Source of the DNA: a virus | IMG/VR virus record: IMGVR_UViG_3300042197_001058 | Span: 1-64,000 of that record | Direction: 5' to 3' (one strand) | Length of the DNA: 64,000 nt | Part shown: positions 10,023-23,198 of the stretch, piece after piece | How positions within the stretch are numbered: the stretch's first letter is position 1 | How the letters are laid out: the number at the start of each line of letters is the position of its first letter | The notes under the pieces: model-generated | The model's input: only the letters and a program-made list of their open reading frames with translations | What the model was told of the DNA's origin: nothing | The model's database searches: none | Made by a program: the position numbers and the translations under genes

Positions 10023-10050
10023 ATTCTATCATCTATTATCGGCGTGTCAA
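10023..10050 (-). promoter_or_regulatory. GCCGATAAT-type promoter
   Basis: TTGACA, 16-bp spacer with GCCGATAAT, TAGAAT; drives the DUF932 gene. Confidence 0.85.
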
Positions 10051-10078
10051 TAGCCAAACTTGCGGAAAAATTTTTTGT

Positions 10079-10647: not shown

Positions 10648-10728
10648 AACGGATGGTACGATTCGAACGTACTTAGAGAAAAGAAAGAAAGGAGTGAATA
10701 GATACTTGTCCCACCAAGTTGCATCCGT
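10648..10728 (-). tRNA. tRNA-like gene with no anticodon stem
   Basis: Acceptor (ACGGATG/CATCCGT), D-arm (ACTT/AAGT) and T-arm (GTACG TTCGAAT CGTAC) are intact. In place of the anticodon arm is an approximately 30-nt nearly pure pyrimidine tract that cannot pair with itself, so no anticodon can be assigned. It may be a decayed tRNA or a tRNA-like structure. Confidence 0.6.
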
Positions 10729-10738
10729 TGAGGAGAGA

Positions 10739-10939
10739 TCAATCGTCTATGATTTCATCTGTTAGATTATGATAGTAATTATCCCAACCATTATCATCTG
10801 TGGTTTCTTTTTCATCGTCATCTAAAACCATCCAAGACTCGTCTACACCATCGTCATAGTAGCACTCGTCTTCATACAAGTCTTCAGAGTTTTGTGCCAG
10901 ATCGTGATAATCGTATTCATACTCATTATCATTCATCAT
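10739..10939 (-). CDS. highly acidic protein, 66 aa
   Basis: More than a third of residues are Asp or Glu, with many Tyr. Such proteins can mimic nucleic acid, as some anti-restriction proteins do, but there is no specific match here. Driven by the promoter at 10960-10988 with a GGGAGA site. Confidence 0.7.
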   Translation of the reverse strand: MMNDNEYEYDYHDLAQNSEDLYEDECYYDDGVDESWMVLDDDEKETTDDNGWDNYYHNLTDEIIDD

Positions 10940-10959
10940 AATCTCTCCCGAGTAAAACT

Positions 10960-10988
10960 ATTATACACCAATCGGCTAAACTTGTCAA
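10960..10988 (-). promoter_or_regulatory. sigma70-like promoter
   Basis: TTGACA, 17-bp spacer with GCCGATT, TATAAT. The -35 lies 1 bp from the tRNA-Lys 3' end. Confidence 0.8.
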
Positions 10989-10989
10989 G

Positions 10990-11062
10990 TGGGCCCCCAG
11001 GGACTCGAACCCTGAACCTAAGAGTTAAAAGCTCCTTGCTCTGCCAATTGAGCTAGAGGCCC
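10990..11062 (-). tRNA. tRNA-Lys (anticodon TTT)
   Basis: Acceptor GGGCCTC/GGGGCCC, anticodon stem AGGAG/CTCTT with loop CTTTTAA, normal T-loop. Reads AAA/AAG. Confidence 0.93.
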
Positions 11063-11101
11063 ATTTTTATATAGTATATCGTACTTTTTCTATTTGTCAA
11101 A

Positions 11102-11174
11102 TGACCCTACGGGGATTCGAACCCCGATATTCGGAACGAAAATCCGAAGTCCTGAACCGTTAGACGATAGGGCC
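11102..11174 (-). tRNA. tRNA-Glu (anticodon TTC)
   Basis: Anticodon stem TCGGA/TCCGA with loop TTTTCGT; T-arm GGGGTTCGAATCCCC. Reads GAA/GAG. Confidence 0.93.
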
Positions 11175-11207
11175 ACTTCGTAACTCAAAAAAACGTCAGC
11201 CTCCGAG

Positions 11208-11283
11208 TAGGGCGTGTACGAGTCGAACGTACCTATGAACACCTTATAAGAGTGTCGGATGCAACCGGCTTACCTTACGCCCC
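11208..11283 (-). tRNA. tRNA-Ile (anticodon TAT)
   Basis: Acceptor GGGGCGT/ACGCCCT, anticodon stem ACACT/GGTGT with loop CTTATAA, T-loop TTCGACT. Reads the rare AUA codon directly, rather than by the usual bacterial lysidine-modified CAT tRNA. A CCGAGTAG direct repeat flanks the gene. Confidence 0.85.
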
Positions 11284-11295
11284 GAGTAGACCACC

Positions 11296-11323
11296 ATCAT
11301 ACCACGCTGGATCATCTTTGCAA
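11296..11323 (-). promoter_or_regulatory. promoter (second, weak) for the tRNA group
   Basis: TTGCAA, 16-bp spacer, TATGAT, just before tRNA-Ile. Confidence 0.45.
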
Positions 11324-11371
11324 GCAAAGCGTCCCTTTTTCTTTACGATTATGCTTGATGGTCAGTTTTGT

Positions 11372-11400
11372 ATTATACAGTGTATATCGGCATCTGTCAA
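11372..11400 (-). promoter_or_regulatory. sigma70-like promoter
   Basis: TTGACA, 17-bp spacer with GCCGATA, TATAAT; transcribes tRNA-Ile, -Glu and -Lys. Confidence 0.8.
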
Positions 11401-11416
11401 CTGGTTCTTTAGGATT

Positions 11417-11782
11417 TCACCACCAACTATCGTAAAAAACATGCAGACCGGCATCAAGTGCTTCACGAGCCTTGCCTACAAACTCCAAATCCTGATTCTT
11501 GTAATATTCGTCACTATCGCTACCAAAAAAGAATCCGCCGGTTTCCGGTAATCCTTTAGATGATACCGCCTTCTCCAGACTATCCAAATCTTCATAAGTC
11601 AATTCTACTGGGATACAATTAAAATCTCCCAGCATATTATGTTCATCACGATCACCGGGACGACCCTTGCTTTCCCAGAGACGTTCCATAAAACCTTGGA
11701 GATTAGGATGCTTACGCCAATACGCCAATTCTTCCTTTTCTCCATTGTTATCAACGCAATATGCATACTGATCCAAACCCAT
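11417..11782 (-). CDS. MGLD-type conserved phage protein, 121 aa
   Basis: Begins MGLDQYAYCV and contains ELAYWRKHPNLQGFME, the signature of a widespread phage protein family whose members start MGLD(M/Q)Y. Function is not known. Start 11782 matches the family start. It has its own GCCGATAAT promoter. Confidence 0.78.
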   Translation of the reverse strand: MGLDQYAYCVDNNGEKEELAYWRKHPNLQGFMERLWESKGRPGDRDEHNMLGDFNCIPVELTYEDLDSLEKAVSSKGLPETGGFFFGSDSDEYYKNQDLEFVGKAREALDAGLHVFYDSWW

Positions 11783-11808
11783 GATTCTTCTCCTCTTGTG
11801 TTGCTCGT

Positions 11809-11836
11809 ATTCTACACTATTATCGGCTACTGTCAA
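11809..11836 (-). promoter_or_regulatory. GCCGATAAT-type promoter
   Basis: TTGACA, 16-bp spacer with GCCGATAAT, TAGAAT; drives 11417-11782. Confidence 0.85.
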
Positions 11837-11853
11837 GAGAAGTCTTTAGAAAA

Positions 11854-11934
11854 TCTAAGTTGTTGAAGAATAAGTACTTAGGTATGATTCGGCCGATCAA
11901 ATTGCTCTAAGTCTTTTGTTATCAATATTTTATG
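11854..11934 (-). repeat. twin-hairpin element A, copy 3
   Basis: Follows directly the 3' end of tRNA-Tyr, so it lies at the end of the long tRNA cluster. Confidence 0.8.
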
Positions 11935-12012
11935 GTGAGTGAGGGACTCGAACCCCCGAAGCCGAAGCACCTGATCTACAGTCAGGCCCATTTGCCGCTC
12001 TGGAAACTCACC
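11933..12012 (-). tRNA. tRNA-Tyr (anticodon GTA)
   Basis: Acceptor GGTGAGT/ACTCACC, anticodon stem CCTGA/TCAGG with loop CTGTAGA, and the long variable arm expected of bacterial tRNA-Tyr. Reads UAU/UAC. Confidence 0.93.
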
Positions 12013-12014
12013 AG

Positions 12015-12085
12015 CAAAGGCGGAGGGAATCGAACCCTCATCTACGGTTTTGGAGACCGTCATTCTACCGTTGAACTACGCCAAT
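12015..12085 (-). tRNA. tRNA-Trp (anticodon CCA)
   Basis: Anticodon stem ACGGT/ACCGT with loop CTCCAAA; discriminator G. The outer acceptor stem is weak: four good pairs (GGCG/CGCC), then T-T mismatches. May be partly decayed. Confidence 0.78.
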
Positions 12086-12086
12086 A

Positions 12087-12173
12087 CGGAATCTGAGGGA
12101 TTCGAACCCACGGAGGATTTTAACCCTCGGCGGTTTAGTAAACCGCTGCCTTAAACCACTCGGCCAAGATTCC
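12087..12173 (-). tRNA. tRNA-Ser (anticodon ACT)
   Basis: Class II tRNA with a long variable arm, discriminator G as in Ser tRNAs, anticodon stem GCGGT/ACCGC with loop TTACTAA. The anticodon ACT (A at position 34) is unusual; bacteria normally use GCT for AGU/AGC. Confidence 0.82.
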
Positions 12174-12179
12174 AAAAAC

Positions 12180-12250
12180 TGCCCAGGTAGGACTCGAACC
12201 TACAACCCAGCGGTTAACAGCCGCTTGCAACTACCATTGTGCTACTGGGC
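12180..12250 (-). tRNA. tRNA-Asn (anticodon GTT)
   Basis: Acceptor GCCCAG(T)/CTGGGC, anticodon stem AGCGG/CCGCT with loop CTGTTAA, T-loop TTCGAGT. Confidence 0.92.
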
Positions 12251-12255
12251 AATAA

Positions 12256-12341
12256 CGGAAACTGTAGGATTCGAACCCACGGAGGTTATTAGCCTCATCT
12301 GATTTCTAGTCAGACGCATTCGACCACTCTGCCAAGTTTCC
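12256..12341 (-). tRNA. tRNA-Ser (anticodon AGA)
   Basis: Class II with long variable arm and discriminator G; anticodon stem TCTGA/TCAGA with loop CTAGAAA. A34 again, reading UCU; bacteria normally use GGA or TGA. Confidence 0.85.
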
Positions 12342-12344
12342 TAA

Positions 12345-12417
12345 ATGCCCGAGTAGGACTCGAACCTACAACCAGCTGATCCAAAGTCAGCCGCTCTACC
12401 AATTAAGCTATCGGGCA
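12345..12417 (-). tRNA. tRNA-Gln (anticodon TTG)
   Basis: Acceptor TGCCCGA/TCGGGCA, anticodon stem GCTGA/TCAGC with loop CTTTGGA. Confidence 0.93.
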
Positions 12418-12420
12418 ATA

Positions 12421-12630
12421 TTATCTATCTCTATGACTTCCGCTCTCCTTTTTGCTTTCTCTAAGATATTGTGCAGCTTGTATTAACCAATGACCCATAG
12501 CTTCTAATTTATCGCACTCTTTATTAGCTAAATAAGAAGCAGTATGAATAAAAACATACTCTATCTTGCCCTTAGATAAAATATCTAGGGTTCCAACAGT
12601 AGAATCAATAAACTTTTTAGGTTTTTCCAT
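12421..12630 (-). CDS. hypothetical protein, 69 aa, inside the tRNA cluster
   Basis: Not recognised; a central helix (YVFIHTASYLANKECDKLEA) and a basic C-terminus. It lies between tRNA-Thr and tRNA-Gln with only a few bp on each side, so tRNA processing would cut it out of a common transcript. Confidence 0.7.
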   Translation of the reverse strand: MEKPKKFIDSTVGTLDILSKGKIEYVFIHTASYLANKECDKLEAMGHWLIQAAQYLRESKKESGSHRDR

Positions 12631-12643
12631 ATAATTTCCAATA

Positions 12644-12715
12644 AGCCGACGAAAGGATTTGAACCTTCAACCTATTGATTACAAATCAATTGCACTACCG
12701 TTGTGCTACATCGGC
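12644..12715 (-). tRNA. tRNA-Thr (anticodon TGT)
   Basis: Acceptor GCCGATG/CGTCGGC, anticodon stem ATTGA/TCAAT with loop TTTGTAA, T-loop TTCAAAT. Reads ACA and others by wobble. Confidence 0.92.
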
Positions 12716-12778
12716 CCGCAAGACTCGCCATTTCTGACGAGTCAAGATCGCTCTATCCACATGGGTAGACACGACAAG

Positions 12779-12854
12779 TAGGGGAAGTGGGATTCGCACC
12801 CACGATCTTCGGCTTATGAGACCGACGAGAACGGCTAGGCTTCTCTATTCCCCG
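12779..12854 (-). tRNA. initiator-like tRNA-fMet (anticodon CAT)
   Basis: Loop CTCATAA gives CAT. Position 1-72 is unpaired (C/T), and the D-stem is GAGA/TCTC with A11:T24 and AGCCT in the D-loop; both are initiator features. The anticodon stem keeps two of the three G:C pairs of initiators. T-loop TGCGAAT has G at position 55. Confidence 0.82.
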
Positions 12855-12859
12855 TCATA

Positions 12860-13027
12860 TTACATATCATACTCGTTTCGCCAAGTTTTGTCAATGTCTC
12901 GACGGGTACGCATACGTTTCGGACGATTATCAAATAACGTATTACGTTCCTCTCTGTGTCCTGTAGCCAACTCCCAAGGCTTTTTAGTCTTTATTTTAAT
13001 TTTATTGTGATTGCGTTTGGGTCGCAT
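12860..13027 (-). CDS. small basic DNRPKR family protein, 55 aa
   Basis: Rich in Lys/Arg with a GH motif followed by DNRPKRMRTRR. The 23695-23850 product has the same order (KP-W, GH, DNRPKRLRTR), so the two are paralogues. Basic small phage proteins of this type may bind RNA or ribosomes; not shown. Start 13027 is a choice between several Met codons. Confidence 0.7.
   Translation of the reverse strand: MRPKRNHNKIKIKTKKPWELATGHREERNTLFDNRPKRMRTRRDIDKTWRNEYDM
12866..12894 (-). promoter_or_regulatory. promoter of the tRNA cluster
   Basis: TTGACA, 17-bp spacer, TATGAT, inside the end of the 12860-13027 gene and just before tRNA-fMet. It can transcribe fMet, Thr, Gln, Ser, Asn, Ser, Trp and Tyr. 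Confidence 0.7.
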
Positions 13028-13259
13028 ATCGTCGTTGAGGTGGTGCATAATCAAACCATTGACCGTTTTCGTGAAGATAAAAAACCTTGTCTAAATTAGG
13101 ATCATAAGCCATTAAACAGTATTGTATAGGATAAACCGGTTTTGTCAATACTTGTTTTTGTGGCAGTTGCGGTATTTTTATATCGCCTTTCTGATAATCT
13201 TTTACACCATTATAGGCCAATCCCAATAATGCAATTATCACACCAATCCACTGGATCAT
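13002..13259 (-). CDS. membrane-anchored small protein, 85 aa
   Basis: Start 13259 follows AGGAGAG. The N-terminus is a single membrane helix (MIQWIGVIIALLGLAYNGV), then a periplasm- or cytoplasm-facing Gln/Pro-rich domain with one Cys. Not recognised. Confidence 0.72.
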   Translation of the reverse strand: MIQWIGVIIALLGLAYNGVKDYQKGDIKIPQLPQKQVLTKPVYPIQYCLMAYDPNLDKVFYLHENGQWFDYAPPQRRYATQTQSQ

Positions 13260-13281
13260 CCGCTCTCCTTTTCTTCTAACA

Positions 13282-13310
13282 AGCATATCATAATTATCGG
13301 CATCTGTCAA
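13282..13310 (-). promoter_or_regulatory. GCCGATAAT-type promoter
   Basis: TTGACA, 17-bp spacer with GCCGATAAT, TATGCT; drives 13002-13259. Confidence 0.82.
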
Positions 13311-13327
13311 TTGTTTCTTTAGTTTTT

Positions 13328-13403
13328 CCTAAGTACTTGAAAAACAAAGACTTAGAACCGAATAACGCGGAGGGACCAGCCGTAAGTGCTGTAGTCCCTT
13401 AGA
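13328..13403 (-). repeat. twin-hairpin element A, copy 4
   Basis: Starts 2 bp after the stop of the 13405-13650 gene and ends before the 13282-13310 promoter. The core is CGCGGAGGGACC. Confidence 0.78.
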
Positions 13404-13404
13404 T

Positions 13405-13650
13405 TTACAACTCGTCTTCTTTATTAATTTCCCAACCAGCTTTTCTACATATTTTATTCAGTTTAATTACTTGAGTATTTTTATCTGCTGTTACATAGTC
13501 TTTAAATCCTCTTTCATCTATATAAAAATATTCATCTAGAATATCAAATTGATTACATTCTCCTAATGTTGTAATAGCAGCATCTAAAGGATTTTTATTA
13601 GTAGAATAAATTAATTCTAGAGTACCACATTTAATATAATATTTAGACAT
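13405..13650 (-). CDS. hypothetical protein, 81 aa
   Basis: Not recognised; the sequence has strand-helix-strand character and ends in an acidic tail. It overlaps the end of the kinase-like gene by 8 bp. Confidence 0.7.
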   Translation of the reverse strand: MSKYYIKCGTLELIYSTNKNPLDAAITTLGECNQFDILDEYFYIDERGFKDYVTADKNTQVIKLNKICRKAGWEINKEDEL

Positions 13651-14218
13651 AGCTATATCTTTCTACACAGTTTGTACAATAACAAGAATAATCCTCGGCA
13701 CCATCCCAACAAACCTTTGGATACCTTTCATCTTCGTCATCAATACTTATTCCTTCAGCACCCAAATCAATTACTACCAACTTCTTTTTACCCAAACGTT
13801 TTACATAACCAAAATTGCCTTCATGACTATCACTATAGTCAATGCCATAGTATTTATACAACATCTCTAAAAGATCATTAACTTCATCGTCATACTCACA
13901 CATTCCATCATCAGAGATATAAGGACTGGCAATTTCAGTCAGATACCCCCAATTACTTAAGACCATATGAGTAACAGTACGGATACCACCACGCCCATTA
14001 GATTCTGCAAAATAATTAGGTACCCTAATTTTGCATACTGGACTATAGACTCTAGGGGCTAAATCTGAACTAGACAAATCTTTCTGCACAGCATGAGAAA
14101 AATCAGCCAAACTCTGATTTGGAAAACTTTTAAATCCGTATTTTCTGCCTTTAAGTTTATAAAATCCATTCAGACTTCCACCATCAGTAAATTGTCCTAC
14201 ATAATCAAACTTAGGCAT
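13643..14218 (-). CDS. protein-kinase-fold (phosphotransferase-like) protein, 191 aa
   Basis: Near residues 130-155 it has DSHEGNFGYVKR followed by LVVIDLG. This matches the catalytic loop (D-x-H-x-x-N) and the metal-binding D-x-G of kinase/aminoglycoside-phosphotransferase folds. No obvious Gly-rich loop is seen at the N-terminus, so it may be minimal or inactive. The C-terminus has CYCTNCVE, a possible zinc site. Phage kinases of this kind can modify host proteins. Confidence 0.6.
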   Translation of the reverse strand: MPKFDYVGQFTDGGSLNGFYKLKGRKYGFKSFPNQSLADFSHAVQKDLSSSDLAPRVYSPVCKIRVPNYFAESNGRGGIRTVTHMVLSNWGYLTEIASPYISDDGMCEYDDEVNDLLEMLYKYYGIDYSDSHEGNFGYVKRLGKKKLVVIDLGAEGISIDDEDERYPKVCWDGAEDYSCYCTNCVERYSYV

Positions 14219-14384
14219 TTCTCATCTCCGTACCAAGATACAACATATCTTCATCACAATCTACACAAACTGGAGTACCATTATCTTGATACCACCACGG
14301 AACAATATTTATTTCATCTTCACATTCAGCACAACGCCATACATGACGCACTTTAGTATCATCGACAATTTGCCAGAGTTCCAT
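14211..14384 (-). CDS. small zinc-ribbon protein, 57 aa
   Basis: Two CxxC knuckles (CAEC near residue 18 and CVDC near 40). Overlaps the start of the kinase-like gene by 8 bp. First gene after the 14409-14437 promoter. Confidence 0.75.
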   Translation of the reverse strand: MELWQIVDDTKVRHVWRCAECEDEINIVPWWYQDNGTPVCVDCDEDMLYLGTEMRNA

Positions 14385-14408
14385 AGTTTTCTCCCTTCGA
14401 TTGCTTCT

Positions 14409-14437
14409 ATTCTACAGAGTATTATCGGCTTTGTCAA
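14409..14437 (-). promoter_or_regulatory. GCCGATAAT-type promoter
   Basis: TTGACA, 17-bp spacer with GCCGATAAT, TAGAAT. Confidence 0.85.
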
Positions 14438-14455
14438 CTAAAAATCTTGAATAAA

Positions 14456-14537
14456 TCTAAATCGTTTGACGTCAAGTACTTAGAACAAATTCTCGCGGCT
14501 CGCCTTGTCCTAAGTTCTTTAGGTACAAGGCTTTATG
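14456..14537 (-). repeat. twin-hairpin element A, copy 5
   Basis: Directly after the stop of the 14539-15243 gene, before the 14409-14437 promoter. Confidence 0.8.
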
Positions 14538-14538
14538 T

Positions 14539-15243
14539 TTAGTGAGAAGGAAAAAGCACGTTAGCCAAACCACGAACACAAAGGTCACACGACACACTAC
14601 CCTTTGTGGGGGTACAAGTCACAACTCCGCGACCACGACGGATTTCGGGGCAAGTAACATATTTGGCATCGTCAATCACAACAAGTTTCGGCAACGCTGC
14701 TCGCCAAGCATCGGCCTTAGCCTTGTTACGCGGACGCTTGCTAACAATTTTCTCGTCGCTATCGCACCATGCAAAGAGTTTGAAACCAGCGGCAACCGCT
14801 TCGGCCTTATCATTAGCATCATGGATACTAGCATAGACCGCCATATACTTTTCCATAGATGATAGCCTATTATCATAGATATGAGTATAAAACCACATAT
14901 CGGGCAGAGCCTTACCTTCGGCAAGAATACTCTCACATGCCCAGACTACGTTATCAACATAGTTGGTGTCGAGTTCGCCATTGAGAAACCAATCGCCACG
15001 TTCATGCCAGCGGATACTTTTACCTTGACGCAAGGCGTCGAGAATCATAGCACGAATACGATTTTTCTCCGTGATAAGATTTTGCATACCGGCGGGACGA
15101 ACATTGGGATAAATCTTCTCAGTATTTTCGGCATAGCAACCGTTACCGAGAAAATCACAATCCGAGGGACAAGTATCACCAACCGGACGAGAAACGACCA
15201 AACAACCCTTGCCCAACTTATCGTTACCGTTTGCAACTTTCAT
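14539..15243 (-). CDS. conserved Cys-rich phage protein, 234 aa
   Basis: The N-terminus GNDKLGKGCLVVSRPVGDTC, then PSDCDFLGNGCYAE, is characteristic of a conserved phage family with a conserved Cys cluster (about residues 14, 25, 29, 36). A second cluster near the end has CPEIRRGRG and CDLCVRG. The arrangement suggests metal binding. Function unknown. Higher GC than average; own promoter. Confidence 0.75.
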   Translation of the reverse strand: MKVANGNDKLGKGCLVVSRPVGDTCPSDCDFLGNGCYAENTEKIYPNVRPAGMQNLITEKNRIRAMILDALRQGKSIRWHERGDWFLNGELDTNYVDNVVWACESILAEGKALPDMWFYTHIYDNRLSSMEKYMAVYASIHDANDKAEAVAAGFKLFAWCDSDEKIVSKRPRNKAKADAWRAALPKLVVIDDAKYVTCPEIRRGRGVVTCTPTKGSVSCDLCVRGLANVLFPSH

Positions 15244-15264
15244 GATTATCTCCTGTGTCTCGTG

Positions 15265-15293
15265 ATTCTACACTAGATTATCGGCACTGTCAA
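15265..15293 (-). promoter_or_regulatory. GCCGATAAT-type promoter
   Basis: TTGACA, 17-bp spacer with GCCGATAAT, TAGAAT; drives 14539-15243. Confidence 0.85.
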
Positions 15294-15320
15294 GAGAAAA
15301 ATTGTGGAAAAATTATTTTG

Positions 15321-15403
15321 GCGTAAGTTGTTGAAGCTAAAGGAGTTACGTCGAACCCGGCCCCTCTGATTTGTCCTAAGTCCTTACCAGCAAAAGAGTT
15401 AGA
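15321..15403 (-). repeat. twin-hairpin element A, copy 6
   Basis: Here the next upstream feature is not a stop codon but the oppositely oriented HNH gene, which seems to have been inserted between this element and tRNA-Arg. Confidence 0.78.
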
Positions 15404-15459
15404 ATCGAATATGCTTTGGTGTATATAGAAGTAGTAGCAACTTCAGATAGGAGATTATT

Positions 15460-15945
15460 ATGGCTAATTGTGTTTGTTGTGGAAAATCTACTAATAATCC
15501 TAAATTTTGCTCTAGATCTTGTTCAGTAAAAACTACTAATAAGATACCAAAAAGAAAAAAGCAAATTAGTTATTGTAAATCTTGTGGTAAAGAAACTGGA
15601 TTTTTCAGACGTAAATTTTGTACCGGATGCAATCCCATGAACAAAGACTGGAATACTATAACATATGGTGAAGCAACCAATAAGCGTAAATATCAAAAAA
15701 ATTCCAGAATAAGAAATCTAGCTAGGAATATATATAGATCTTCAGATAAGCCACAATGCTGCATTGTTTGTGGCTATGATAATCACTTCGAAGTTTGTCA
15801 TATTCGCTCTATATCATCCTTCCCCGATACTGCAACAATATCAGAAATTAATAACATAGATAATCTTATAGCGTTATGTCCTAATCATCACTGGGAACTC
15901 GATCATATTAATTTAATACTGCCGGAAGGATTTGCACCCTCGTGA
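15460..15945 (+). CDS. HNH endonuclease with zinc knuckles, 161 aa
   Basis: Only plus-strand gene of the left arm. CVCCGK, CKSCGKE and CCIVCGY give several zinc sites; the HNH core is EVCHIRSISSF near residues 118-128, followed by NLIALCPNHHWELDH. AGGAG precedes the ATG. The layout (lone reversed nuclease next to a tRNA) fits a mobile homing-type endonuclease. The last codons overlap the antisense of the tRNA-Arg 3' end. Confidence 0.85.
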   Translation: MANCVCCGKSTNNPKFCSRSCSVKTTNKIPKRKKQISYCKSCGKETGFFRRKFCTGCNPMNKDWNTITYGEATNKRKYQKNSRIRNLARNIYRSSDKPQCCIVCGYDNHFEVCHIRSISSFPDTATISEINNIDNLIALCPNHHWELDHINLILPEGFAPS

Positions 15946-15989
15946 GTCAACTTAGAAGGTTGATGCCTAATCTACTCGGCCACGGCAGC
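15917..15989 (-). tRNA. tRNA-Arg (anticodon TCT)
   Basis: Acceptor GCTGCCG/CGGCAGT, anticodon stem TCAAC/GTTGA with loop CTTCTAA. T-loop TGCAAAT has G at position 55, as in the fMet gene. Reads AGA/AGG. The 3' end overlaps the HNH gene on the other strand. Confidence 0.85.
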
Positions 15990-16188
15990 GTATTCAATGC
16001 CGCAAGCCCACACGGCGTCCCGTGAGGGCTGTACGGTTTGATGGTGGGATCACTTTACCATCGTTATATTACTAGCAGCAGACCCCTTCCCAGCAACCAC
16101 GCTGGTTATTAGTTGGTTAGACTCTGCTAGGCTGGTATTGCCAGCGTCATACGCGGGACGAATCCCGCCGCACTATGCCTAAATACTA
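15990..16188 (-). ncRNA. structured non-coding leader RNA upstream of tRNA-Arg
   Basis: About 200 bp with no open frame, GC-richer than surroundings and full of hairpins: GCGGGA/TCCCGC with a TTCG loop, CCAGC/GCTGG inside AGCAGA/TCTGCT, GATGGT/ACCATC and CACGG/CCGTG. It starts at a good promoter (16189-16216) and reads into tRNA-Arg, so it is probably a processed small RNA. No known family was recognised. Confidence 0.6.
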
Positions 16189-16216
16189 TTTATACTGGCA
16201 TAGTCCAGTTTGTCAA
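16189..16216 (-). promoter_or_regulatory. sigma70-like promoter for structured RNA and tRNA-Arg
   Basis: TTGACA, 16-bp spacer, TATAAATA. Confidence 0.78.
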
Positions 16217-16218
16217 GG

Positions 16219-16470
16219 TCAGGCCTCGACGGTTTCCTTCTCAACCTTTGCGTTGTGAGCATCACCGGCCTGTTCCGCAGTCACACCAGTCACACGGGCA
16301 CGCCACACCTTATAGCCTTGCTCCGAGAACACCTTGATCTCGCCAGCCTTGACATTCGCATGAACATCACCTGGCAGAGCATCGGCCAGACACGAACGGA
16401 TCGAATCGACCACAACCTCACGATCAAGGTCATCAGCGACAATATCGACAGCAAACGTAAACTTCTTCAT
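16219..16470 (-). CDS. hypothetical protein, 83 aa
   Basis: Not recognised; begins MKKFTFAVDIVADDLDREVV, consistent with a ferredoxin-like beta-alpha-beta start. GC-rich codon use. Own promoter at 16516-16544. Confidence 0.72.
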   Translation of the reverse strand: MKKFTFAVDIVADDLDREVVVDSIRSCLADALPGDVHANVKAGEIKVFSEQGYKVWRARVTGVTAEQAGDAHNAKVEKETVEA

Positions 16471-16515
16471 AGTAATAAACCCTTTCCAAAAAGTGTAATC
16501 TAACCAAGTAAAGTA

Positions 16516-16544
16516 ATCATACCATATACATCATCACTTGTCAA
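16516..16544 (-). promoter_or_regulatory. sigma70-like promoter
   Basis: TTGACA, 17-bp spacer, TATGAT. Confidence 0.75.
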
Positions 16545-16606
16545 GGGCCAATCCGAACTTTTGTTGTTTTCGGGATCGTTTGGCACTCTTGTCGTGTGAT
16601 GCTATC

Positions 16607-16634
16607 AGTATACCTTAGTTATCGTCATTGTCAA
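16607..16634 (-). promoter_or_regulatory. sigma70-like promoter
   Basis: TTGACA, 16-bp spacer with ACGATAA, TATACT. It has no convincing gene of its own and may be a second start site for 16219-16470. Confidence 0.65.
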
Positions 16635-16674
16635 GACGGTTCGTGAATCAAAATTCCAGATTATTTGAATTGTT

Positions 16675-16756
16675 CCTAAGTTGTTTTGCTATAAGGAGTT
16701 ATGTCAAATCGGGCCGCGCCGCCTCACCCTAAGTTCTTTAGGGACAAGGCTTTAGA
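16675..16756 (-). repeat. twin-hairpin element A, copy 7
   Basis: Ends immediately at the stop codon of the bL12-like gene. The core is GGGCCGCGCC. Confidence 0.82.
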
Positions 16757-17125
16757 TCAAGATAAATATCCCTCACAACCCAAACCGACCAGATCACGCA
16801 AGAGAGCCTCGGCGGCAGCCGGAGTAGGCAACTTGATAGTATTCTTAATACCACCAGTCACCCAGCGTCCGATATTTGTATCATAACGCCCAACCAACAT
16901 ATCCGTCCACTCTTTAGCCTCTCTCAATCCCCATCCAGAGTGCAGGCGAATAGCCTTGATGCAAGGAATACGATTGTCTCCCGGCATCTTAGTAATAGTA
17001 ACGTCACGACTCTGGTTAATACCAAGAGCCACCTCGATATTCTTCACGATACGATCATGCAGATCGTTACCCGCAGTGTTGGCAATAGCAATAGCCTCTG
17101 CAATCGTCACTTGAATACTAATCAT
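16757..17125 (-). CDS. ribosomal protein bL12 C-terminal-domain-like protein, 122 aa
   Basis: The second half matches the bL12 C-terminal fold: IPCIKAIRLHSGWGLREAK (residues about 53-71) corresponds to the conserved IKxVRxxTGLGLKEAK helix-loop, and PAAAEALLRDLVGLGC to the last helix. In bacteria this domain recruits translation GTPases. Phage copies are known from metagenomes and could bind elongation factors or ribosomes. The N-terminal 50 residues are not bL12-like. Confidence 0.72.
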   Translation of the reverse strand: MISIQVTIAEAIAIANTAGNDLHDRIVKNIEVALGINQSRDVTITKMPGDNRIPCIKAIRLHSGWGLREAKEWTDMLVGRYDTNIGRWVTGGIKNTIKLPTPAAAEALLRDLVGLGCEGYLS

Positions 17126-17604
17126 ACCTTAAAATCTCCTAAATACTTTGAATCAATTTCTCTAAGATCGTCAAATGCACAATCGCGTTCTTCCAAAATA
17201 TAAACTTGTTTACCGTGAGTAATCAGTGTGGCATACTCAGTTTCGTCCCAAATAAACTCATTATTATCACTTTCTCGTCGCCAGTGCGGATCACGAAGTG
17301 GATTATAAAACACACGCTCAAGGTTGTCAACAGGTAAAATGGGATAAAAACTTTTCCTAAGCATGGTTTCTTCACACCGAATCCACCCACTCACATCATG
17401 CACACCAGCCTCAAAAACTTGCTTGGCTTTATTAGGACGATTGCGAAGTTTACAACCACGTAATTCTAACTGATATTCATTAGGATCGTAATAATATACA
17501 TCAACAGTCTGCCCACCCTGCTTGACGCGCACTTGCCAATGCATATAATTTTTTCCACTGCCAAGATGGAATCGAACTTCGCCATATAGTGGTTTCTGTT
17601 TCAT
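17122..17604 (-). CDS. hypothetical protein, 160 aa
   Basis: Not recognised; beta-rich, with Trp and Tyr. Overlaps the bL12-like start by 4 bp, so the two are co-translated. Confidence 0.75.
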   Translation of the reverse strand: MKQKPLYGEVRFHLGSGKNYMHWQVRVKQGGQTVDVYYYDPNEYQLELRGCKLRNRPNKAKQVFEAGVHDVSGWIRCEETMLRKSFYPILPVDNLERVFYNPLRDPHWRRESDNNEFIWDETEYATLITHGKQVYILEERDCAFDDLREIDSKYLGDFKV

Positions 17605-17610
17605 GTTACC

Positions 17611-17639
17611 AGTATACCTTATCGGCTAAATCTTGTCAA
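17611..17639 (-). promoter_or_regulatory. GCCGATAAT-type promoter
   Basis: TTGACA, 17-bp spacer with GCCGATAAG, TATACT; drives 16757-17604. Confidence 0.8.
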
Positions 17640-17653
17640 GACCTTTAAACTTT

Positions 17654-17699
17654 CGCTGACTACAGCCACTCTAGCCAAATCCGTAGGATTAGCAGAGAC
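17654..17699 (-). repeat. 46-bp intergenic element, copy 8
   Basis: Upstream of the 17611-17639 promoter; carries the consensus CTAATCCTACGGATTTG hairpin. Confidence 0.85.
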
Positions 17700-17788
17700 A
17701 GACCGGGTTATGCCATACTCGGCCTTGCATTTAACCGTGGCTTCTTTAACGTTATTCTGCCAGCGGCCCGTTTCTGTCCTGCCGTATT
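17700..17788 (-). other. short transcribed stretch, possible gene remnant
   Basis: A frame without a start codon (includes WQNNVKEATVKCKAEYG) resembles the 20980-21123 product (WQNN..., A...KYG). It may be a decayed paralogue whose start is lost; the promoter at 17789-17816 still faces it. Confidence 0.4.
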
Positions 17789-17816
17789 AGTATACTCTAT
17801 TATCGGCAAACGTCAA
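17789..17816 (-). promoter_or_regulatory. GCCGATAAT-type promoter
   Basis: TTGACG, 16-bp spacer with GCCGATAAT, TATACT. Confidence 0.78.
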
Positions 17817-17834
17817 GAGCAATCTTTAATATAT

Positions 17835-17918
17835 CCTAAGTCGTTGTTGGATAAGAACTTAGGTCAAATTTCCGCCGCCGGGTTGGTCGTAAGTCCTTAT
17901 CTACCAATCATTTCCGAC
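17835..17918 (-). repeat. twin-hairpin element A, copy 8
   Basis: Overlaps the last six codons of the 17901-18035 gene. The core is CCGCCGCCGG. Confidence 0.8.
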
Positions 17919-18035
17919 ATACCACCAATGGCATCTCTGGCAAAAGTTCCAGATAAGTCCATTATTATCATACTTCCACACCAAAACTTCACACGCCCCA
18001 CACGGACAAATATCGCTAAGTGTTTTAAGTTCCAT
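17901..18035 (-). CDS. small zinc-ribbon protein, 44 aa
   Basis: CPCGAC near residue 10 and CQRCHWW near 32 form a zinc ribbon. Start 18035 is chosen because it falls just after the stop of the upstream gene. The end is overlapped by a twin-hairpin element. Confidence 0.7.
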   Translation of the reverse strand: MELKTLSDICPCGACEVLVWKYDNNGLIWNFCQRCHWWYVGNDW

Positions 18036-18037
18036 AT

Positions 18038-18364
18038 TCAATCGTACAAATCTTTCGTATATTTCTCTGGAATAATCGGACACCAACTCTTGGCTCGTTC
18101 CTCATCGTAAGGAAGCCAGTAAGGAGCATCACAAGCGTCCACGATCCCCCAGTAAGTATTGTCAGTATTCTTGAAAACATGTGGACATAGTTCTATTACT
18201 TTATCCTCATATACCTTCACACCATTGTCATCATAATAGTATGGAGTAAATGAACTATTCTCGTTAAAAGAATAATAACCAATTCCTATACCGATTTGTG
18301 GCCCAAAGTAATAAACTTTCTGGCCTTCGGTTGGAGGATTCTTATGAGAGTTATTCCATTCCAT
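18038..18364 (-). CDS. DUF551-like small protein, 108 aa
   Basis: Residues WNNSHKNPPTEGQKVYYFG at the start and YWLPYDEE towards the end resemble DUF551-type phage proteins (W-x-PxxPPxxG ... HWxPLPxxP). Function unknown. It abuts the next gene upstream (shared base). Confidence 0.65.
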   Translation of the reverse strand: MEWNNSHKNPPTEGQKVYYFGPQIGIGIGYYSFNENSSFTPYYYDDNGVKVYEDKVIELCPHVFKNTDNTYWGIVDACDAPYWLPYDEERAKSWCPIIPEKYTKDLYD

Positions 18365-18489
18365 TAGTTAGTAACCTCAATAATCCACTTAGTACCCTTG
18401 AGTTCAGCCACCACGCCCATCTTCAACTTTGTCAACTCGGCCACAATCTCACACAATCTTTCAATTTCATTCAGATTAAGATAGATCAT
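18364..18489 (-). CDS. hypothetical protein, 41 aa
   Basis: A short helix-rich protein (MIYLNLNEIERLCEIVAELT). It overlaps its upstream neighbour by 4 bp and adjoins the next gene, supporting real translation. Confidence 0.65.
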   Translation of the reverse strand: MIYLNLNEIERLCEIVAELTKLKMGVVAELKGTKWIIEVTN

Positions 18490-18713
18490 TTACCTCTCCC
18501 AACAATCAAACACAGAGTACCAACCTTCTCATCGGTAAACTTCACACATTCGTGAGGCCCATAATACCAAGCCCCATCACCACGCTTAACATCGAACACA
18601 ATATCGTCATTATCCAACCTAATATCATGATACCCACCCTCATAACCAAGAGTAAGAACCCTCATATCGCCCGGATAACTTTTCAACTGCTCAACCAGTT
18701 CGTTAACGGTCAT
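18486..18713 (-). CDS. MTVxEL-type phage protein, 75 aa
   Basis: Begins MTVNELVEQLKSYPGDMRVL, typical of a small family common in phages whose members start MTVxELxxxLxxxPxD. Function unknown. Overlaps both neighbours by 4 bp. Confidence 0.72.
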   Translation of the reverse strand: MTVNELVEQLKSYPGDMRVLTLGYEGGYHDIRLDNDDIVFDVKRGDGAWYYGPHECVKFTDEKVGTLCLIVGRGK

Positions 18714-18928
18714 TTCTTAACCTTTTTTCTTTTGATACTTTTCAAGTAGATAGGAGACTTCTGATATGGTTTGGTCACAATCTCTATTTCACGAATATCA
18801 ACCGGCCTACCATAAAACTCAGCATCATTATAATATGATCGTGCAATCTTTTCAGTCTTACAAATCATCTCAATAGATTCATGAATACTAGCGGCCCCGT
18901 ACTCACAAACAATAGCATAGGCTTTCAT
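18710..18928 (-). CDS. hypothetical protein, 72 aa
   Basis: Not recognised; basic C-terminal tail (KSIKRKKVKK). Start 18928 overlaps the preceding stop (TAATG). Confidence 0.7.
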   Translation of the reverse strand: MKAYAIVCEYGAASIHESIEMICKTEKIARSYYNDAEFYGRPVDIREIEIVTKPYQKSPIYLKSIKRKKVKK

Positions 18929-19122
18929 TACCAACCCTCCGGCATAGGAATATCACCAAGATACATATAATAGGCTACTTCATTATTATCAAGAGTTTCC
19001 CAATCGGTATTTTGATAACTCCAAACAGAACCATCCCAATATAATTCAGTAGGCTTATTATTACCAACAATAGCACAAAGATAATAACCCATATCAATAG
19101 GTTTTCCGGTTCGCCAAGTCAT
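18928..19122 (-). CDS. DUF551-like small protein, 64 aa
   Basis: TWRTGKPIDMGYYLCAIVGN at the start resembles DUF551-type proteins and the 18038-18364 product in layout. Start 19122 is preferred over 19152. Confidence 0.65.
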   Translation of the reverse strand: MTWRTGKPIDMGYYLCAIVGNNKPTELYWDGSVWSYQNTDWETLDNNEVAYYMYLGDIPMPEGW

Positions 19123-19124
19123 CG

Positions 19125-19289
19125 TTATACCCTCATTGCTAAATCGGCCCACACCTCAATCAACTCTTTAGCCGTTATACCATATTCTTCTGCTAAAGTC
19201 AAGGCTTCATCCCGATTATAAACACTCATAACCATCATAGGATTCTTTAAAACTTTCAATATCTTAACTATCGCTTGTTCTTTAGTCAT
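19125..19289 (-). CDS. hypothetical protein, 54 aa
   Basis: A short helical protein (MTKEQAIVKILKVLKN...). It lies 2 bp from the next start. First gene after the tRNA-like gene at 19314-19397. Confidence 0.68.
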   Translation of the reverse strand: MTKEQAIVKILKVLKNPMMVMSVYNRDEALTLAEEYGITAKELIEVWADLAMRV

Positions 19290-19313
19290 GCTTTACACAT
19301 TCTAGTATTAAGG

Positions 19314-19397
19314 GGCAAATGGATGGACTCGAACCATCAAGTCTTAATCATATAATATATTGTATGAAGAGTGTTTTTCCAGTTAAACTACATTCGC
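19314..19397 (-). tRNA. tRNA-like gene with enlarged anticodon loop
   Basis: Acceptor (GCGAATG/CATTTGC), D-arm (GTTT/AAAC) and T-arm (GATGG TTCGAGT CCATC) are intact. The anticodon stem TCTT/AAGA closes a 21-nt AT-rich loop in place of 7 nt, which can itself pair (CATA/TATG). This looks like an intron-like or other 14-nt insertion; no anticodon can be given with confidence. Confidence 0.6.
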
Positions 19398-19406
19398 CAT
19401 ACCTGT

Positions 19407-19434
19407 ATTCTACCATCTATTATCGGCTTGTCAA
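19407..19434 (-). promoter_or_regulatory. GCCGATAAT-type promoter
   Basis: TTGACA, 16-bp spacer with GCCGATAAT, TAGAAT; 10 bp before the tRNA-like gene. Confidence 0.85.
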
Positions 19435-19910
19435 TATAAAAAACCAGCGAATCTTTTACGCCCCGATTCTATTGCCCAACAGTCTACCCTTTGACGGAAC
19501 TGTGGAAACCGCCCACGGAAATCCTTCCTAGGCATAGTTCATGACTCATGCCGTCTGGCTCTTGGGAACGATTACTGGTTGTATTGGTCGTGGTGAGGAC
19601 GCCATCCCCCATAGATTAATCGACTCTCTAGTTCCTATGGCTGAACCCACGAAGTAATTATATGAATCGTAGTGGGGACGCTATCCCCCATAGATAAGCA
19701 CTACTATACAGCGTTTAAGCCCGCTGTCAACCCCACCTCGCATAACGAACGGTAGGTTTATCGTAATGGCTTAACCCTATCTAGTCCCGAGCATGGACCT
19801 ACGAATGTTTGTATTGTTAGGACCGATTGTAGAAAACGTTTCCTAGGACATCAACTACCGTTTTTACCGGCTACTCGGCCCGACATAACCAACAAGCGTT
19901 TGCTTGTTCT
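19435..19910 (-). ncRNA. large structured non-coding RNA candidate
   Basis: About 475 bp without a real gene, GC-richer than the neighbours, transcribed from the 19917-19944 promoter toward the tRNA-like gene. It contains a tandem 29-bp motif (near 19592-19620 and 19669-19697), each folding as GGGGA/TCCCC or GGGGA/TCCTC with a 5-nt loop, and other hairpins such as ACAAGC/GCTTGT near 19891-19905. Size and position next to a tRNA recall the large ornate phage RNAs (GOLLD, ROOL), but similarity was not tested. Confidence 0.6.
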
Positions 19911-19916
19911 TCAGTC

Positions 19917-19944
19917 ATTCTACACTCTATTATCGGCTTGTCAA
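19917..19944 (-). promoter_or_regulatory. GCCGATAAT-type promoter
   Basis: TTGACA, 16-bp spacer with GCCGATAAT, TAGAAT; drives the structured RNA. Confidence 0.85.
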
Positions 19945-19972
19945 TAGGATTTGCTTGAAAAAATATTTTTTG

Positions 19973-21990: not shown

Positions 21991-22014
21991 ACTGTCCTCT
22001 CTTTCTTGCGTTCT

Positions 22015-22043
22015 ATCCTACAATACTATTATCGGCTTGTCAA
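22015..22043 (-). promoter_or_regulatory. GCCGATAAT-type promoter
   Basis: TTGACA, 17-bp spacer with GCCGATAAT, TAGGAT. Confidence 0.8.
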
Positions 22044-22071
22044 GCGAAAAATCTTAAAAAAATTTTTTTGA

Positions 22072-23118: not shown

Positions 23119-23143
23119 TTTTCACTCTCTCTTTCATCTTTGG

Positions 23144-23171
23144 ATTCTACCATATATTATCGGCTTGTCAA
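23144..23171 (-). promoter_or_regulatory. GCCGATAAT-type promoter
   Basis: TTGACA, 16-bp spacer with GCCGATAAT, TAGAAT; drives 22157-23118. Confidence 0.87.
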
Positions 23172-23198
23172 GAGAAAAAACTTAAAAAAAATATTTTA

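Follow-up and report, generated by a model that had tools for sequence, protein, structure and literature searches.

What use could a phage have for a tRNA-like RNA that lacks the part with which tRNAs decode? The question is raised by two tRNA-like genes, here called element 1 (10648-10728) and element 2 (19314-19397), both on the minus strand of the window that we analysed, positions 1-64,000 of the IMG/VR virus record IMGVR_UViG_3300042197_001058 (83.6 kb as a whole). A preliminary description had noted that both keep full acceptor stems, that element 1 has a pyrimidine tract unable to form an anticodon stem, that the anticodon loop of element 2 has 21 nt instead of 7, and that both lie just upstream of genes. 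All of this is borne out: the tract of element 1 is 31 nt long and the minimum free-energy fold shows no anticodon stem in it, the long loop of element 2 is closed by a UCUU/AAGA stem, and the ATG of a phosphoribosyltransferase (PRTase) gene and a 54-codon open reading frame (ORF) follow 7 nt after element 1 and 24 nt after element 2, respectively. The two do not form one kind, however, as that description had supposed, since element 1 recurs in relatives as a conserved, structured RNA whereas element 2 was found nowhere else. We propose, with a probability of about one half, that element 1 is a tRNA mimic, conserved and acting in cis, that serves as a processing, or punctuation, signal for the PRTase mRNA.

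Read from 10728 to 10648, element 1 begins with a 7-bp acceptor (ACGGAUG/CAUCCGU) followed by C8 and A9, and it shows the hallmarks of a tRNA in its acceptor, D and T arms, its T loop of the form UUCRANY and the G-G in its D loop. Its free-energy minimum is exactly the acceptor/D/T fold (z -1.9 against shuffles), and a canonical anticodon arm (5-bp stem, 7-nt loop) appears neither there nor in the RNAalifold consensus; the tract in its place consists almost entirely of U, C and A. These arms are not due to chance, since a strict descriptor (7/7 acceptor pairs, 4/4 D-stem pairs with GG in the loop, 5/5 T-stem pairs, TTCRANY loop) matches seven times in the window and not once in 40 dinucleotide-matched randomised windows. 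The tRNA score check that the preliminary description had suggested separates the two elements: the Rfam tRNA model (RF00005) lists nothing at 10648-10728 even at E<=1, and gives element 2 40.2 bits, above the gathering score of 29 bits. Element 1 matches no Rfam family and is absent from the ARAGORN tRNA list of the window.

Relatives were collected by searching viral contigs with the PRTase protein, which yielded 80 loci in uncultivated large phages, most of them from one phage group; L-numbers below denote loci in other phage contigs. Element 1 is present at the same site upstream of the PRTase gene in 74 of the 79 contigs in which the upstream region is included. Two RNA-pattern scans that made no use of the protein recovered these contigs along with roughly a dozen others, and the PRTase gene then follows element 1 in all 64 distinct sequences, including those from contigs found by the RNA pattern alone. 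The sole apparent exception is a locus slice that ends 98 nt past the element, and another locus from that contig shows the gene. A single copy per genome was counted in ten records, 84-244 kb in size.

Element 1 is strongly conserved as a folded RNA. In the alignment of the 64 sequences, 99.5% of the cells in the acceptor, D and T helices are paired versus 79.4% after shuffling, and pairing collapses to 29-41% when the partners are slid. Compensatory changes on both sides occur in 15 of the 17 pairs, and cells with a double change number 217 as opposed to 63 +/- 9 in shuffles; RNAalifold independently returns the same 17 pairs and leaves the middle unpaired. On a maximum-likelihood tree of the PRTase, acceptor pair 6 changes its state 14 times, T pair 3 17 times and T pair 4 10 times, and the element is missing in three separate lineages, so that the covariation cannot be one inherited event. 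The way in which members were collected accounts in part for the invariance of C8 and of the GTGGG loop, but it does not explain the covariation of the helices. What is kept among the relatives are the acceptor and T stacks, the D loop G-GUGGGA-C and the T loop UUCRAAU. The acceptor sequence itself varies (ACGGAUG, GUGUGUG, GUGGAUG, ACCGGGU, UUGAGUG and others), and the discriminator is U in 48 sequences, A in 8, C in 7 and G in 1. Given that both vary freely, no amino-acid identity is kept in element 1, and a decoy for aminoacyl-tRNA synthetases was rejected on the same ground. Selection thus acts on exactly the top half and the elbow of the molecule, and on neither a decoding part nor an amino-acid identity. 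A coding constraint was also rejected: the PRTase frame is open through the window copy, yet the lengths of the element in relatives differ by non-multiples of three.

A covariance model built from the element 1 sequences (R1) gives its members 68-96 bits, and no ordinary tRNA of these phages exceeds 38; L081, whose PRTase is a distant relative and whose middle is 14 nt long, reaches 41 bits. Bacterial and archaeal genomes contain 31 pattern matches, none of which scores above 22 bits with this model. Among isolated phages, we found no convincing DNA match of element 1, no protein match of the record's portal-like protein, and PRTase relatives solely in mycobacterio- and gordoniaphages, all of them distant (<=36% identity); the one examined, in phage Astro, is a longer gene in a different neighbourhood. 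An actinobacterial host, sought through WhiB, found no backing, with no match in 12 records.

The tract between the D and T arms varies in length (14-42 nt) and in sequence. The motif TCCTTTC (UCCUUUC) occurs in 43 of 59 distinct tracts compared with about 1 in shuffles. Canonical anticodon arms are possible in seven of the 59, which is the chance frequency (shuffle mean 4.1, range 0-10). A minority of tracts could form a small hairpin, e.g. AAGGA-UUA-UCCUU, and a short CCC/GGG closure is seen in one clade; neither amounts to an anticodon arm.

The surroundings of element 1 are narrowly set. A small acidic ORF stands at the same upstream place in nearly all relatives, its stop 4-17 nt before the element, and the gap between the discriminator and the PRTase ATG spans 0-12 nt, with 2-3 nt in 43 of the 64 sequences and 0 in one. 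At the PRTase start the Shine-Dalgarno (SD) duplex energy is -2.4 or weaker in 64/64; at the best ATG of the upstream ORF it is -5.6 to -12 in 63/63, which amounts to a strong SD. On the 3' side, base 75 is U in every sequence and base 74 in 46 of the 64, and no CCA is encoded. Since CCA is encoded in only 10 of the 432 distinct tRNAs of these phage loci, their tRNA 3' ends would be made by trimming, presumably by RNase Z, and CCA addition; the U-rich trailer without CCA agrees with RNase Z rather than with CCA-encoded maturation for element 1.

RNase P and RNase Z recognise the tRNA elbow, in which two guanines of the D loop meet the T loop, and gauge distance along the stacked acceptor and T stems (PMC11693755). 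The acceptor, T arm and D/T elbow that element 1 retains are the parts that such end-processing enzymes would read, and its G-rich D loop could make the elbow by docking onto the T loop. The acidic ORF and the PRTase gene presumably lie on one transcript, with element 1 in their short gap. Host RNase P would then cut at the 5' end of the element and host RNase Z 3' of its discriminator, freeing the upstream message and giving the PRTase mRNA a new 5' end 0-12, mostly 2-3, nt before its AUG. The resulting nearly leaderless mRNA could be translated without an SD, a case of tRNA punctuation. In L028 and L042 a genuine tRNA-Lys stands in place of element 1, with the PRTase ATG about 20 nt further on, which we count in favour of processing. 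Of the readings offered by the preliminary description, that of a tRNA-like processing signal or decoy describes element 1 best, with processing preferred, and does not extend to element 2.

Several observations weigh against processing. The base before element 1 shows no strong preference for U (U 24, G 19, A 18, C 3) and its first pair is A-U in 35 sequences versus G-C in 26, both of which are poor for bacterial RNase P. Gaps of 6-12 nt, found in 14 of the 64 sequences, exceed those of classic leaderless starts. The element is missing in L012 and L050/L054, where the PRTase gene still has no SD behind an AU-rich leader of 24-26 nt, and is thus not indispensable. The conserved tract motif UCCUUUCUU has no role in the processing model. 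Finally, other anticodon-less families, described below, stand alone in tRNA arrays and some of them carry CCA, a hint that the excised RNA may itself be the product.

It is possible, though we regard it as unlikely, that element 1 stays in the mRNA, where its fold would bridge the upstream stop and the PRTase start for termination-reinitiation, or where a bound protein or metabolite would switch PRTase translation. The absence of an own SD in front of the PRTase gene and the shortness of the stop-to-element and element-to-start gaps in all relatives fit such bridging, as does the stop-to-start gap of 24-26 nt in the element-less L012 and L050, which is near the summed gaps elsewhere. Any stable hairpin would do for bridging, however, and the tRNA-specific elbow of D and T loops would be superfluous. 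The conserved UCCUUUCUU tract could serve as a protein-binding or standby site. UCCUUUCUU resembles the 3' tail of 16S rRNA (the anti-SD side) of many Gram-positive bacteria, but anti-SD mimicry was rejected, given that the pairing of the tract with an SD is no better than in composition-matched shuffles (-6.2 versus -6.1 kcal/mol), a result that also counts against an element staying in the mRNA. As to regulation by the gene product, the PRTase matches PHROG 2068 (1.7e-12) and, slightly below the cut-off, Pfam PF00156 (24.4 bits). Its AlphaFold model (predicted local distance difference test score, pLDDT, 89) resembles type I phosphoribosyltransferases in Foldseek, the closest solved matches being orotate and adenine enzymes, and the RNA-binding PyrR is not among the best 50 matches, which counts against this reading. 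Nothing in the predicted structure points to RNA binding.

We give a similarly low weight to the idea that the excised RNA is what the phage makes the element for, its place in a gene leader being a coincidence. A stable RNA of tRNA-like shape could act as a decoy or competitor towards host defences that target tRNAs, towards RNase P, or towards the enzymes that add CCA or modify tRNAs. Having no anticodon loop, it would be resistant to anticodon nucleases, and both mascRNA and the t-elements of plant mitochondria persist after cutting (PMC11693755, PMC11658184). Similar-looking anticodon-less elements of what we call the GACAA family sit in phage tRNA arrays, some ending in CCA, but these are not demonstrably homologous to element 1, as model R1 scores them like or below ordinary tRNAs. 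A free RNA would also not need one particular gene and a narrow spacing in 64/64 sequences, nor does the lack of a conserved acceptor identity and discriminator favour a decoy.

That the two elements are both decayed tRNA genes (pseudo-tRNAs) is very improbable. The preliminary description had pointed to degraded, non-folding copies in relatives as contrary evidence to look for; for element 1 we found the opposite, well-folding copies with recurrent and independent compensatory changes in all three helices and at a fixed position, and its reading as a decayed tRNA is therefore rejected. Decay stands as the likeliest reading of element 2 alone, which has no homolog by RNA pattern, is not found at its gene in 18 relatives and has a middle that folds no better than shuffles (p 0.33), even though all three of its arms (acceptor, D and T) are still perfect, with a promoter-like sequence directly in front. 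It is hardly conceivable that the elements are functional tRNAs with a small intron, as the suggestion of an intron-like insertion would have it: extra bases do sit where the anticodon arm belongs, but the 59 tracts share no exon pair, anticodon or splice site, canonical arms are no commoner among them than chance predicts, an uninterrupted arm is found in no relative, and tract length varies down to the 14 nt that separate the D and T arms of L081.

In the tRNA punctuation of animal mitochondria, excision of the tRNAs leaves essentially leaderless mRNAs. Those tRNAs are real and charged, whereas element 1 would be a mimic unable to decode. Closer in form are the t-elements of plant mitochondria, which are tRNA-like, lie at mRNA ends, in some cases upstream of a coding region (cox1), are cut by RNase P and RNase Z, which sets the ends of the mRNAs, and are not aminoacylated (PMC11658184). 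Element 1 resembles them in that its tRNA-like fold adjoins a coding region and no CCA is encoded. The t-elements, however, share ancestry with ordinary tRNA genes and retain a tRNA-like secondary structure, while element 1 lacks the anticodon arm, belongs to a bacterial or archaeal host, has a fixed place before one start codon, and its cutting is only predicted. The mascRNA and menRNA of MALAT1 and MEN-beta are excised from longer transcripts and not charged, and their acceptor, T arm and two-G D loop form an elbow (PMC11693755). Element 1 likewise keeps the acceptor, T arm and D-loop guanines for an elbow, but the D arm of mascRNA is reduced and its stem equivalent to the anticodon arm is longer, in contrast to the full 5-bp D stem and the absence of any such stem here. 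The mascRNA-menRNA model (RF01684) finds nothing in the window at E<=1, and L297, a member of the wider class described below, reaches 18.6 bits with it versus a cut-off of 42.5.

Host RNase P also cuts the phage M3 RNA, the C4 antisense RNA and the T4 gene 32 mRNA (PMC11143913). These are set apart by their description in that source, where they do not figure as an acceptor-D-T mimic before a start codon and have no RNase Z step. With transfer-messenger RNA (tmRNA), including its permuted form (RF04321), element 1 shares a tRNA-like domain without an anticodon arm. Unlike tmRNA, it has no tag reading frame and no G3-U70 alanine identity, pair 3 being G-C in 60 of the 64 sequences; its middle is of variable length, and the tmRNA models had no match in the Rfam scan of the window. 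Processing signals in the form of tRNA mimics are known from mitochondria and from long RNAs of humans; the one proposed here stands before the start codon of a phage enzyme gene. In the open-access full-text literature we found no family of phage tRNA-likes without an anticodon arm and no such use of tRNA mimics in phage messengers.

If processing holds, a phage messenger would borrow the essential tRNA-trimming enzymes of its host through a mimic that never decodes, which would make element 1 a prokaryotic parallel to tRNA punctuation in mitochondria and, for RNase P and RNase Z, a naturally occurring minimal substrate. Even if it does not, a structured, single-copy RNA fixed at a start codon in many large phages awaits a function. 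Element 1 is in any case a defined RNA family of 64 sequences with a working covariance model. The tRNA finders in current use overlook or misname it, and phage tRNA counts and annotations are affected as a result. ARAGORN, for instance, calls the element 1 copy of L030 a tRNA-Ile(tat) and the tRNA-like RNA of L297 a tRNA-Asp(atc).

A looser pattern (C8, GGUGGGAC, GUUCRAAUC) returned further tRNA-likes without a normal anticodon arm in other phages. Those of L290, L303 and L329 again precede a PRTase-like start. A GC-rich group with the D arm GCGUG-GUGGGA-CACGC (L278, L281, L282, L297, L298 and L318) lies near non-PRTase genes, and ordinary leaders appear to precede some of these. The GACAA family comprises 23 distinct sequences (L276, L279, L283, L291, L305, L313 and others; alignment A3) with an invariant GGUGGGAC D loop, a hairpin with a GACAA pentaloop in place of the anticodon arm and a T stem of 2 bp, and covariation supports all seven acceptor pairs and all three hairpin pairs. 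Its members occur in large phage tRNA arrays, some then followed by CCA, or just upstream of a tmRNA-like 3' piece, and none of those tested had an Rfam match above threshold. Because the search itself required the shared loops, common descent of this wider class with element 1 is not demonstrated. A broader proposal, to which we would give somewhat less than even odds, is that anticodon-free tRNA mimics with a GUGGG D loop form a superfamily in phages, in which one branch would serve as start-codon punctuation through which the host's tRNA-processing enzymes make leaderless mRNA from a polycistronic message, and others, the GACAA and GC-rich groups, would be free RNAs.

The features discussed are collected in the table. 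The record also encodes portal and terminase genes and 13 tRNA genes according to ARAGORN, 12 of which lie within 10989-15989, all on the minus strand. A Pistol self-cleaving ribozyme (RF02679; 55.4 bits versus a cut-off of 34.5) is found at 16147-16209 on the minus strand of the window, about 160 nt before a tRNA-Arg gene.

Table. Positions of elements 1 and 2, their parts and their neighbours in the window
Feature	Positions	Strand	Remarks
Element 1, tRNA-like RNA without anticodon arm	10648..10728	minus	acceptor 10722-10728/10649-10655, discriminator U 10648; 85.7 bits with model R1
D arm of element 1	10704..10719	minus	ACUUG-GUGGGA-CAAGU, 5-bp stem; closing G-C pair and loop core GUGGG invariant
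Pyrimidine-rich tract replacing the anticodon arm	10673..10703	minus	31 nt, AUCUAUUCACUCCUUUCUUUCUUUUCUCUAA; contains UCCUUUCUU, common to most relatives
T arm of element 1	10656..10672	minus	GUACG-UUCGAAU-CGUAC, 5-bp stem
PRTase gene, 165 aa	10143..10640	minus	ATG 7 nt after the discriminator of element 1; no SD
Small acidic ORF	10739..10939	minus	stop 10 nt before element 1; strong SD
tRNA-Lys(UUU)	10989..11062	minus	upstream in the same tRNA array
Element 2, tRNA-like gene	19314..19397	minus	34 nt between D and T arms; 4-bp UCUU/AAGA stem, 21-nt loop
Promoter-like TTGACA-16-TAGAAT	19407..19434	minus	putative transcript start ~3 nt before element 2; read directly from the sequence
54-aa ORF downstream of element 2	19125..19289	minus	starts 24 nt after element 2; kept in 18 relatives without element 2

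Element 2 has the acceptor GCGAAUG/CAUUUGC, with a possible extra pair G-1:C73, a GUUU/AAAC D stem, a GAUGG/CCAUC T stem and the T loop UUCGAGU. It has no 7-nt anticodon loop from which an anticodon could be read, ARAGORN does not report it, and a search for relatives by RNA pattern found none, its four matches being other tRNAs. Most likely it is a divergent or decaying single tRNA. Four stretches of the window (10023-10052, 19917-19946, 22014-22051 and 23141-23181), of 30-41 bp, 84-93% alike and on the same strand, resemble the TTGACA...GCCGATAATAG...TAGAAT sequence before element 2.

Another tRNA-like RNA (CCAC...GAGGAGUU) precedes the 54-aa ORF of element 2 in several relatives. Its anticodon stem is over-long or short-looped (L005:2695, L038:1688, L041:3321, L053:2151, L058:673-748, L220 on the minus strand, L381 and L389-L392), and Rfam sees its tRNA part only; it is flanked by conserved GAUACCGGACAUUAUUCG...AAGUCGAUCCAUUAACANCCGGUAU, which could pair outside the RNA. 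Non-coding stretches at about 19420-19960 on the minus strand (GUUCCCAAGAGCCAGAC...UUUCCGUGGGCGGUUUCCAC; GAUAGCGUCCUCACCACG) are shared with L032, L218, L003, L384, L393, L386 and L078; they have no Rfam match and are possibly further structured RNAs of phages.

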